Origin: Roseobacter sp. HKCCD6576-2
Lineage (GTDB): Bacteria; Pseudomonadota; Alphaproteobacteria; Rhodobacterales; Rhodobacteraceae
Reading direction: 5' to 3'
Length of the DNA: 64,000 nucleotides
Assembly: GCF_013179285.1 (NCBI RefSeq)
Contig: NZ_WVNW01000001.1
Location: 930,001-994,000 of the forward strand
The notes below the pieces were generated by a model. It made no database searches. It was not told where the DNA came from and was given only the letters and a program-made list of their open reading frames with translations. This document shows positions 41,430 to 43,801 of the stretch, one piece after another. How positions within the stretch are numbered: position 1 is the stretch's first letter; every line of letters begins with the position of its first letter. The position numbers and the translations under genes were made by a program.

Positions 41430-42494
41430 ATGCTCCGCCGTCTTCACCTCGACCAACCCGACAGCTTCGCCTTCACGCCCGCCAATCAGGCCTGGGCCGA
41501 GGCGCAGATCACCAAATACCCCGAGGGCCGGCAGGCCAGCGCGATCATTCCGCTGCTTTGGCGGGCGCAGGAGCAGGAAGGATGGCTGAGCCGCCCGGCT
41601 ATTGAATATGTCTGCGATATGCTTGGCATGGCGCATATCCGGGGCCTCGAAGTCGCAACCTTCTATTTCATGTTTCAGCTTCAGCCGGTCGGATCGGTCG
41701 CGCATATCCAGGTTTGCGGCACGACCTCCTGTATGATCTGCGGCGCAGAAGACCTGATCGGGGTGTGTCAGGAAAAGATTGCCAAGCGGCCGCATCAACT
41801 CTCTGCCGATGGCAAGTTTTCCTGGGAAGAGGTGGAATGCCTCGGCTCTTGCGCCAACGCACCGATGGCCCAGATCGGCAAGGATTACTACGAAGACCTG
41901 ACGGCGGAGAAGCTCGGTTGGATCATCGACGAGATGGCCGCTGGTCGGGTGCCGACACCCGGGCCGCAAAACGGGCGCTATGCCTCGGAACCGGCGGGCG
42001 GGCTGACCTCGCTGAAAGACTACGAAGCGGGCAAAGACGATCTGAACGTCTCGGCCCGTTTAGCAACCGATATTGGCGACACGATCAAACGGATCGACGG
42101 GACCGAAGTGCCGCTGATCGCCAATTGGGGCCGTCAGTCGGGCGGCGATGTCGCTGAGGCGCCCGCGAAACCCAAAGCGACGCCTGCGCCTGCCGCCAAA
42201 GCCGCGCCGACACCAGAACCGGCAACTCCGCCTGCCTCTGAGCCGGCGGTGGCTGAGGTGGCACCAGAAACGCTAAGCGCGCCGCGCGACGGTGGGGCCG
42301 ACGATCTGAAACGGATCAGCGGTGTCGGGCCGAAGCTTGAGGGTGTGCTGAACGAGTTGGGCTTCTGGCATTTCGACCAGATCGCGGCCTGGACCGAGGC
42401 CGAGATCGCTTGGGTCGATGCCCGGTTGAAGTTTAAAGGTCGTATTGAACGCGATGATTGGATCGCCCAGGCCCGCAGTTTCGCTTCAGAATAA
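41430..42494 (+). CDS. nuoE: NADH-quinone oxidoreductase subunit E with C-terminal helix-hairpin-helix domain
   Basis: 354 residues, about twice the enterobacterial length. Residues 1-185 are the thioredoxin-like 2Fe-2S subunit (cluster N1a) with Cys ligands in [10 protein letters not shown] and [11 protein letters not shown] segment resembling the alphaproteobacterial NuoE tail follows (185-240), then an Ala/Pro-rich linker (240-280) and a domain at 282-354: [26 protein letters not shown] helix-hairpin-helix followed by HFDQIAAW. The same domain ends the next two proteins. The extension is, as I recall, also present in Rhodobacter capsulatus NuoE. Confidence 0.95.
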
Positions 42495-42519
42495 GGCAAG
42501 ACAGGGCCGATCTCTCACG

Positions 42520-42555
42520 CTAGCTTGTGACCGCGAAAACGCATCACAAGTCTAG
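42520..42555 (+). other. Imperfect hairpin between nuoE and the next gene
   Basis: CTTGTGA (42524-42530) and TCACAAG (42544-42550) pair perfectly and are flanked by CTAG on both sides with one offset base. It lies 26 nt after nuoE and 13 nt before the next start and could modulate downstream expression. Confidence 0.4.
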
Positions 42556-42567
42556 GGGAGATGTCGG

Positions 42568-43212
42568 ATGAACGAGACGTCGGGCGCGCCGAGCTGCGCA
42601 ACGATCTGTTGGATTGCAGGTGGCGTTTTGGGCCTGCTGCTGATGATCATTTTGATCTCAACGGCGGGTTGGGGATTTTTCGGGGCACTGATCGTCGGCG
42701 CTTTGGTCGGTATTGGCGCGGCCTATCTGCTGAAGATGCTCTTCTGCAACAGGGCGCAAACGGCGGGTGAGACCATGGCGCGCCCTGCATCAACCGCCGC
42801 AAGCGCGCCACCAGCACCTGTGGTCACGCCAGCGCCGGAGGCAGAACCCGAGACACCCGCGCCGACAGAGGCCGTAGAGCCTACGCCTGTATCGACACCC
42901 GCGCCAACGTCAGTTTCCGATGCAGGCACACAACCTCAAGGGCTCGCTGCCGCTCGTGAAGGTGGCGCAGATGATCTCAAGAAGATCAAAGGCGTTGGGC
43001 CAAAGCTTGAGCAGATGCTCAACGAGATGGGCTATTACCATTTCGATCAGATTGCCGCGTGGACTGCTGATGAGGTGGCTTGGGTCGATGCCAATCTCAA
43101 AGGGTTCAAGGGCCGGGTCAGTCGCGACACCTGGGTCGAGCAGGCGAAGCTATTGGCCGCAGGGGGTGAGACCGATTTTTCCAAGAAAGTTGACGAAGGC
43201 GATGTATATTGA
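42568..43212 (+). CDS. Membrane-anchored helix-hairpin-helix protein of the nuo operon
   Basis: 214 residues. Two N-terminal hydrophobic segments (about 14-34 and 38-55) are followed by an Ala/Pro/Glu-rich linker (about 70-125) and a C-terminal domain (128-200) with DDLKKIKGVGPKLEQMLNEM and [20 protein letters not shown]. This matches the C-terminus of NuoE very closely, so both domains probably arose by duplication. The membrane anchor would place a NuoE-like domain next to the membrane. The ATG follows AGGGGAGATG. Confidence 0.88.
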   Translation: MNETSGAPSCATICWIAGGVLGLLLMIILISTAGWGFFGALIVGALVGIGAAYLLKMLFCNRAQTAGETMARPASTAASAPPAPVVTPAPEAEPETPAPTEAVEPTPVSTPAPTSVSDAGTQPQGLAAAREGGADDLKKIKGVGPKLEQMLNEMGYYHFDQIAAWTADEVAWVDANLKGFKGRVSRDTWVEQAKLLAAGGETDFSKKVDEGDVY

Positions 43213-43252
43213 CCCTCGGGAGGAAGTTGTGACTGCCGCTTAGGAGAGCAAA

Positions 43253-43801
43253 ATGAAACTGGCAGAGAATCTCTGGCTTGGGTCCGTCGCGGCCCAGCAA
43301 AACCTTCTTCACATGGTTAACTATTCCACCGCGTTCTATGGCGCCGCGGCGCTGCAAGGGGCGCATCTGGGTCTTACGGCTCCGGTGACGTTTTGGTCGG
43401 CCCTTTCACGCGTGAGTGACGGGGCGATCCCGGCCAATCTGGATGTTACCCCGCCAGCACCGGCTCCTGCGCCAAAAGCCGAGGCTTCGAAACCGCAGCC
43501 CGCCGAGGCTGCGCCCATCGCCGCCGAGCCGGACGTGGTGCCGGATATCAAGCCGGTCGCCGCGAGCCCACATTTGTTGGACGCGCCGCGTGACGGCAAA
43601 GCGGATGACTTGACCGTCATTTCGGGGATCGGGCCAAAGCTGGCGGAGACGTTGGGCGAATTTGGTATCTACCACTATGACCAAATCGCGTCGCTGGACA
43701 CGGTTGGCATTGATTGGCTGAACGAACAGCAACCGGGTTTCAAAGCCCTGGTGGCTCGGTTCGACTTGGTTGGGCAGGCGAAAGTGTTGGCGACCGGGTA
43801 A
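43253..43801 (+). CDS. Third helix-hairpin-helix protein of the nuo operon
   Basis: 182 residues after TAGGAGAG. The N-terminal 60 residues (MKLAENLWLGSVAAQQNLLH...) form amphipathic helices without a clear membrane segment, somewhat phasin-like. A Pro/Ala linker (about 65-105) leads to a diverged copy of the domain (110-182): DDLTVISGIGPKLAETLGEF and HYDQIASLD. The GxGPKL core and the H[FY]DQIA box are kept. Function unknown; the operon position suggests an accessory or assembly role in complex I. Confidence 0.85.
   Translation: MKLAENLWLGSVAAQQNLLHMVNYSTAFYGAAALQGAHLGLTAPVTFWSALSRVSDGAIPANLDVTPPAPAPAPKAEASKPQPAEAAPIAAEPDVVPDIKPVAASPHLLDAPRDGKADDLTVISGIGPKLAETLGEFGIYHYDQIASLDTVGIDWLNEQQPGFKALVARFDLVGQAKVLATG

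Follow-up and report, generated by a model that had tools for sequence, protein, structure and literature searches.

The 64,000-nucleotide stretch of Roseobacter sp. HKCCD6576-2 analysed here (contig NZ_WVNW01000001.1, positions 930,001 to 994,000; hereafter the window) contains a nuo operon for respiratory complex I in which two small genes, here called X and Y, follow nuoE, and the products of all three genes end in the same small domain, predicted to be of the helix-hairpin-helix (HhH) type and called the HhH domain below. The genes nuoE, X, Y, a DUF5337 gene and nuoF are consecutive and all lie on the + strand. nuoE and X are separated by 73 bases, X and Y by 40, and Y and the DUF5337 gene by 86; the DUF5337 gene directly adjoins nuoF. 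In window coordinates, the features are as follows.

41430..42494, + strand: nuoE, the 2Fe-2S subunit, 354 amino acids (aa) with a C-terminal extension (PF01257, E 3.4e-50; NF009040 PRK12373, 586.9 bits, cut-off 514)
42279..42491, + strand: HhH domain of NuoE, residues 284-354 (alignment; profile match)
42568..43212, + strand: X, 214 aa, two-transmembrane hairpin, linker and HhH domain, orthologue of protein-O by sequence (phmmer, 8yy9_O, E 3.4e-45, and 9wqv_a, E 1.3e-34; PMC12079452, accessible part)
42595..42747, + strand: transmembrane hairpin region of X, residues 10-60, with Cys10, Cys14 and Cys60 (hydropathy; Cys positions)
42943..43164, + strand: HhH domain of X, residues 126-199 (alignment; AlphaFold2, mean confidence 89)
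43165..43209, + strand: C-terminal tail of X, residues 200-214 (V/I-Y end in 58 of 88 X)
43253..43801, + strand: Y, 182 aa, N-terminal helix, linker and HhH domain (alignment; predicted structure)
43256..43423, + strand: predicted N-terminal helix of Y, residues 2-57 (block confidence 74 falling to 43)
43583..43798, + strand: HhH domain of Y, residues 111-182 (alignment; predicted structure)
43888..44142, + strand: DUF5337 protein, a common neighbour (PF17272, E 1.6e-31)
44143..45432, + strand: nuoF (best solved relative among the matches listed, 8qby_F)

Aligned over about 72 columns, the three C-terminal domains share 28 invariant residues, including ADDL, G-x-GPKL and H-x-DQIA. Identity to the NuoE domain is 68% for X and 46% for Y, and pairwise BLASTP E-values are 4e-37 (NuoE-X), 6e-21 (X-Y) and 1e-19 (NuoE-Y), a likeness that by sequence is far beyond chance. 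The initial annotation had proposed such a domain on all three proteins, with conserved DDL, G-x-GPKL and H-x-DQIA motifs and joined by Ala/Pro-rich linkers, and each of these points held, the linkers also over relatives (median A+P 0.36 in 125 NuoE, 0.46 in 88 X and 0.41 in 13 Y). Including their linkers, the tails in the window carry net charges of -6 (NuoE), -9 (X) and -8 (Y), and the mean charge of the domain alone is -0.75 in NuoE (n=126), -0.28 in X (n=88) and -2.85 in Y (n=13). The basic residues of GPK and of a second motif, FKGRxxR, are 85-100% conserved in NuoE and X, and the second motif is largely lost in Y.

The assignment to the helix-hairpin-helix class, also made in the initial annotation, agrees with the predicted fold. 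Structure prediction with AlphaFold2 (31 sequences) gave a five-helix domain with a predicted local distance difference test (pLDDT) of 89 and a predicted template modelling score of 0.77, and in a prediction of Y alone (7 sequences) the C-terminal domain was likewise good (block pLDDT mostly 86-90). A Foldseek search of the PDB with the predicted domain returned nothing at E <= 0.001; ranked first were N-terminal HhH domains of RadA (best E 0.11), followed closely by a chain of the T. brucei mitoribosome and by acidic-repeat domains of NusA, with template modelling scores of 0.50-0.63 by query length for RadA and NusA and of 0.56-0.70 by target for isolated NusA domains. For two of the NusA acidic-repeat hits, the entry titles name complexes with SuhB and protein N. 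The model therefore has helix-hairpin-helix domains as its nearest solved folds, at weak E-values, whereas the Pfam HHH_5 scores of X (18.6 bits) and Y (18.7 bits) lie under the gathering cut-off of 27, and the NuoE tail was not listed among the HHH_5 matches in a scan of the window proteins. The T. brucei chain, BS, was considered as a mitochondrial L21 with the domain and rejected; bL21m in that structure is chain AV.

The domain also occurs outside the operon. It hits the NCBIfam families with a long C-terminus for NuoE (PRK12373), ribosomal proteins L21 (PRK12278) and S2 (PRK12311) and the phasin PhaH, with scores under the whole-protein cut-offs apart from NuoE's own match to PRK12373, which is expected because only one domain is shared. 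A profile built from the three copies found four places in the window's genome, namely NuoE, X, Y and ribosomal L21, the domain of which is 54% identical to that of X. In a class sample of 142 genomes, nearly one per family and with carriers recognised by eye, 15 genomes matched the domain, two of them (G111, G195) weakly and with proteins that look like other HhH proteins. L21 was the carrier in seven genomes (G000, G082, G117, G125, G130, G151, G183), S2 in G130, NuoE outside the family in G117 only, and one-transmembrane proteins in several. The domain is not specific to complex I, because L21 in the same genome, S2 and one-transmembrane proteins in other genomes, and PhaH in NCBIfam carry it.

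Some carriers stand in contexts of their own. In three genomes an HhH protein with a single hydrophobic segment, at its N-terminus, lies beside a gene that looks OmpA-type by eye (L181 1304-1747, L197 584-1381, L199 1447-2655), possibly a conserved envelope pair. A DUF2189 membrane protein with the domain (L180 1958-3265, genome G037 of the family) adjoins a gene that by eye looks like typA/bipA. Two proteins of 855 and 1314 aa (L048 1927-4494 in G054 and L049 356-4300 in G017) combine an N-terminal hydrophobic segment with four copies of the domain; the nuoE regions of these two genomes have no X.

A sequence search of the PDB with X matched chain O of 8yy9 ('Reaction center protein O chain', E 3.4e-45) and chain a of 9wqv ('NADH:ubiquinone oxidoreductase 41 kd complex i subunit', E 1.3e-34). 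The first is protein-O, a new subunit, 239 residues long, of the reaction centre-light-harvesting 1 (RC-LH1) complex of Dinoroseobacter shibae (PMC12079452, cited throughout from its accessible part). The second entry also contains a reaction-centre cytochrome chain and is absent from the NuoF relatives among the matches listed (42 distinct sequences, at most 8 entries each); we took it as a reaction-centre complex despite the chain name, and a literature search found no publication on it. No complex I entry in the PDB matched X or Y in the sequence search. According to its authors, protein-O could be traced only over residues 8-59, as a hairpin between the reaction centre and LH1 with a Cys10-Cys59 disulfide, its C-terminal part being flexible or lost in the structure; its gene sits between nuoE and nuoF, its C-terminus is common to NuoE, and its function is unknown, an assembly role being speculated from a position like that of protein-U (PMC12079452). 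The initial annotation, which did not know of any description of these proteins, was thus anticipated on the common C-terminus and on the nuoE-nuoF location.

X resembles protein-O in its two-transmembrane hairpin, linker, C-terminal domain, VY end and nuoE-nuoF location. The alignment to 8yy9_O is strong over the C-terminal residues 118-214 (i-Evalue 3.1e-42) and weak over the N-terminal part (i-Evalue 0.15). Hydropathy shows two hydrophobic segments in X, starting at residues 12 and 37, which together with the cryo-EM hairpin of protein-O (PMC12079452) bears out the two-helix membrane anchor proposed earlier. Its cysteines are Cys10, Cys14 and Cys60, with positions 10 and 60 standing against 10 and 59 in protein-O, and a Cys pair 43-52 residues apart occurs in 57 of 88 X. 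A 239-residue X in genome G035 of the family sample begins MATQRKDMTCTITCWGIGVLLGIM and agrees with 8yy9_O where the alignment shows it. On this sequence comparison X is an orthologue of protein-O. The two differ in that the RC-LH1 partner is absent from the window's genome and that a third HhH protein, Y, follows X in the window; X here is an orthologue and not an RC-LH1 subunit, because the window's genome has no Photo_RC match.

The distribution of X was scored in a family sample of 61 genomes, with stretches taken from all of them and 58 scorable (NuoE lay outside the stretch in G022 and G032, and the contig ends in G028). With X called as an HhH protein between nuoE and nuoF, 33 of the 58 genomes have it (32 by script, and G058), in the nuo operon in all 33, and in each of these the first HhH protein after nuoE has two hydrophobic segments. 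The NuoE tail was detected in 45 of 58, absence meaning that it was not detected, as the long NuoE of G023 (396 aa) and G051 (623 aa) may have diverged tails; a further 80 named loci were drawn with a tail-bearing query, so that their 80 of 80 tails are biased and were left out of the prevalence. All p-values given here are rough, since genomes share ancestry. Photo_RC matched in 23 of the 61 genomes. Of the 33 genomes with X, 12 have reaction centres, against 9 of the 25 that lack X (Fisher p 1.0; p 0.79 before G058 was moved); nine genomes thus have reaction centres and no X. The distribution of X is independent of reaction centres, and X is therefore not tied to photosynthesis. It would be possible to regard X as a photosynthesis protein and RC-LH1 subunit only, with the operon location and the NuoE tail incidental, given protein-O in the D. 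shibae RC-LH1 (PMC12079452) and the X-like chain that accompanies a reaction-centre cytochrome in 9wqv. The missing Photo_RC match in the window's genome, the independence of X from reaction centres and the location of X in the nuo operon in 33 of 33 genomes make this highly improbable, and we rejected a photosynthesis-only X.

X instead goes with the NuoE tail, being present in 30 of the 45 genomes with a detected tail and in 3 of the 13 without (Fisher p 0.009). Divergence of the NuoE and X domains correlates beyond that of the NuoE catalytic part (partial Spearman 0.18, permutation p 0.002, n=84; L065 was left out as a duplicate of G011). A second motif, VKPSxxLPGQxELAxRKGTWxYEG, is common to 13 of 88 X, five NuoE linkers and six HhH-less proteins in the place of X; L090 looks like the same contig as G031, which leaves four distinct NuoE and five distinct HhH-less proteins. 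In the profile search this motif was not found in the window, and over the 61 genomes it gave 21 hits, spread over 15 genomes. Only two of these hits lie outside nuoE-region stretches, a weak one in G012 and one at the N-terminal end of an ABC-transporter ATPase of G035. An end of the GETEFSKRVEDGDVY type, with a V/I-Y terminus, is found in 58 of 88 X and in 11 of 126 NuoE. In eight X-less genomes (G005, G018, G031, G038, G039, G046, G056, G057) an HhH-free protein, by eye a putative transmembrane hairpin, stands in the place of X.

Two single loci may be noted beside these links. In L193 (1495-3395, genome G082) the NuoE and X domains are both L21-like (SFKGRI), with 82% identity between them, and the G035 ATPase (L250 2720-3721) has PSxxLxGExxLAxRKGxWxY near its N-terminus.

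The explanation that we favour, tentatively and short of calling it probable, is that the HhH domain is a small docking module on a flexible linker and that the domains of X and NuoE cluster complexes or help to assemble them. In this reading the three proteins carry, on Ala/Pro-rich linkers, one protein-docking module of the type seen in NusA acidic repeats and RadA, which the operon would place on NuoE in the NADH arm of complex I, on the membrane hairpin protein X and on the third protein Y. X would be anchored in the membrane beside a quinone-using complex, which would be RC-LH1 where one exists and, in the genome of the window, which has no reaction centre, probably complex I or another respiratory complex. 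The NuoE and X domains would interact directly or meet at a common partner, and would in this way cluster the complexes or help to assemble them. The nearest folds in RadA and NusA, the acidic tails, the association of X with the NuoE tail, the co-variation, the common motifs and the presence of protein-O in RC-LH1 are consistent with docking; protein binding by the domain, partner sharing of NuoE and X, and a place of X at complex I in this genome are what we infer. The scaffold at the NADH arm suggested in the initial annotation is retained as a plausible docking role, to which the association of X with the NuoE tail lends weight, and loses its restriction to complex I.

Several observations weigh against docking. 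Protein binding by the domain is argued by analogy, the Foldseek E-values are weak (best 0.11), and a scaffold at complex I leaves the domain on L21 and S2 unexplained. The L21 and S2 tails compared here are also mostly acidic, so that acidity separates the readings poorly, and the GPK and FKGRxxR residues are conserved as a DNA-binding HhH domain might have them. The only isolated complexes containing an X relative in the PDB search are reaction-centre complexes, and the NuoE tail occurs without X in 15 of 45 genomes. The NuoE-X correlation is weak, with a mean identity of 0.668 for own pairs against 0.631 for other pairs; the own X has a median rank of 25 of 85 and comes first in 13. The test controls only in part for shared ancestry. 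Gene conversion may cause part of the correlation: 10 of 85 NuoE domains resemble the X of their own operon no less than they do the nearest NuoE tail of another genome, and the HhH-coding DNA of nuoE and X in one operon (L102) is 97% identical over 290 bp. In three further loci (L038, L068, L093) the corresponding DNA is 82-92% identical over 235-344 bp, and recent gene conversion is likely in all four.

In some operons the domain-coding DNA of nuoE and X is nearly identical, which would also fit a largely neutral spread, in which the extension was copied between neighbours by duplication or gene conversion and is tolerated on a flexible linker while doing little; the NuoE tail that went undetected in 13 of 58 genomes and the C-terminal position on otherwise unrelated proteins point the same way. 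The retention of core residues across carriers (14 invariant columns in 9 mixed sequences, 8 in 31) and of the V/I-Y end in 58 of 88 X speaks against it, and we consider such an origin improbable.

The main rival to docking is a tether to the nucleoid, in which the domain would bind DNA without sequence preference, so that complex I, patches of membrane and further particles stay attached to the chromosome. PhaH binds DNA nonspecifically through its C-terminal end, relying on its HhH domain, according to the accessible part of a review (PMC13052382), and the PhaH model NF045508 matches all three window domains, under its whole-protein cut-off; the RadA-type fold and the GxGPK hairpin with the conserved K/R set FKGRxxR likewise suit a DNA-binding domain. 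By contrast, the tails in the window are acidic where the one phasin-like HhH protein compared (G017) has +5 in the domain and +4 in the preceding 30 residues, NusA acidic repeats of the same fold were solved with protein partners, judging by the entry titles, and the second basic motif is largely gone from Y. Charge is weak evidence for deciding between DNA and protein, and the comparison was made with the G017 protein, not with PhaH itself. We lean to protein docking and regard the tether as a doubtful though serious possibility.

The ribosomal carriers bear on two broader proposals. In one, the domain would belong to an assembly or biogenesis set: carried both by ribosomes (through L21 or S2) and by X, it would draw ribosomes towards the place in the membrane at which complex I or RC-LH1 is put together; the window's genome does carry the domain on L21 and on the membrane protein X, and the authors of protein-O speculated on an assembly role (PMC12079452). 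The L21 and X domains are only 54% identical, and the ribosome-X contact would be drawn by analogy, which leaves us with little confidence in this proposal. In the other, rather unlikely in our view, the domain would work across Alphaproteobacteria as a shared address label that guides complex I, RC-LH1, ribosomes (L21, S2), storage granules and envelope proteins either to one partner or to one another, X and NuoE in Rhodobacteraceae coupling complex I to photosynthetic or respiratory quinone-using complexes.

Parts of this picture were already known, namely the tailed NuoE, L21, S2 and PhaH families in NCBIfam and protein-O in RC-LH1; new are the independence of the X family from photosynthesis, its company with the NuoE tail, the weak co-variation of the two domains and the second motif common to X and NuoE linkers. 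The window NuoE exceeds the curated cut-off of PRK12373 (NF009040), a model that already covers tailed NuoE, with no essential difference. L21 (PRK12278) and S2 (PRK12311) with a long C-terminus share the C-terminal domain and differ in the ribosomal carrier, and the NusA acidic-repeat and RadA N-terminal domains, the nearest solved folds, belong to different proteins and matched at weak E-values (0.11 and above). The closest solved NuoF among the matches listed is that of P. denitrificans complex I (8qby). In the accessible part of the report on this complex (PMC11522691), NDUFV2 is only 29 residues longer than the mammalian one and no X is named among the subunits; the P. denitrificans NuoE counterpart seems to have no tail, and the structure is therefore no test of the tail. 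Among the papers covered by our literature search, which lay largely outside subscription journals and were in part accessible, none connects NuoE with protein-O, L21 and PhaH or describes X in genomes that lack reaction centres; the accessible parts of PMC4859585 and of the review PMC12654162 do not mention the NuoE tail or protein-O, and a search on R. capsulatus NuoE found nothing useful. Protein-O was published in 2025 as an RC-LH1 subunit without known function, and a family that is common without reaction centres, lies in the complex I operon and shares its domain with NuoE turns attention away from photosynthesis and towards how the respiratory chain is organised. As ribosomal proteins and a phasin carry the domain too, its ligand is of general interest.

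The third HhH protein, Y, was found 13 times, 12 of them distinct (L065, a duplicate of G011, is kept in the count), with N-termini that by eye are of two kinds at the same place. The initial annotation had described its N-terminal part as an amphipathic, phasin-like helix, and neither description was upheld. The helix of residues 2-57 was predicted at low confidence (AlphaFold2, 7 sequences), its hydrophobic moment was not above that of shuffled sequences in any of 7 Y tested out of 13, and the N-terminal part had no phasin family match in the 5 of 13 Y tested. The match of the window Y to PhaH (NF045508, Caulobacter; PMC13052382, accessible part) is confined to model positions 129-232: the C-terminal HhH part of PhaH matches all three window proteins, whereas its N-terminal phasin part is unmatched by Y and the window tails are acidic. 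The window's genome has a PhaC_N match (phaC), and a phasin function for Y is, on sequence, a guess.

The DUF5337 gene is a regular member of the locus, lying within the nuoE-nuoF gap in 43 of 58 family genomes and in 69 of 75 named loci. A contig titled Nocardioides marinus (L127) encodes a NuoE 67% identical to that of the window, with an HhH tail and a DUF5337 neighbour, and is probably mislabelled or contaminated. Further genes inside the nuo operon of the window encode a DUF5333 protein (46295-46726) and a member of the carboxymuconolactone-decarboxylase family (50757-51170).

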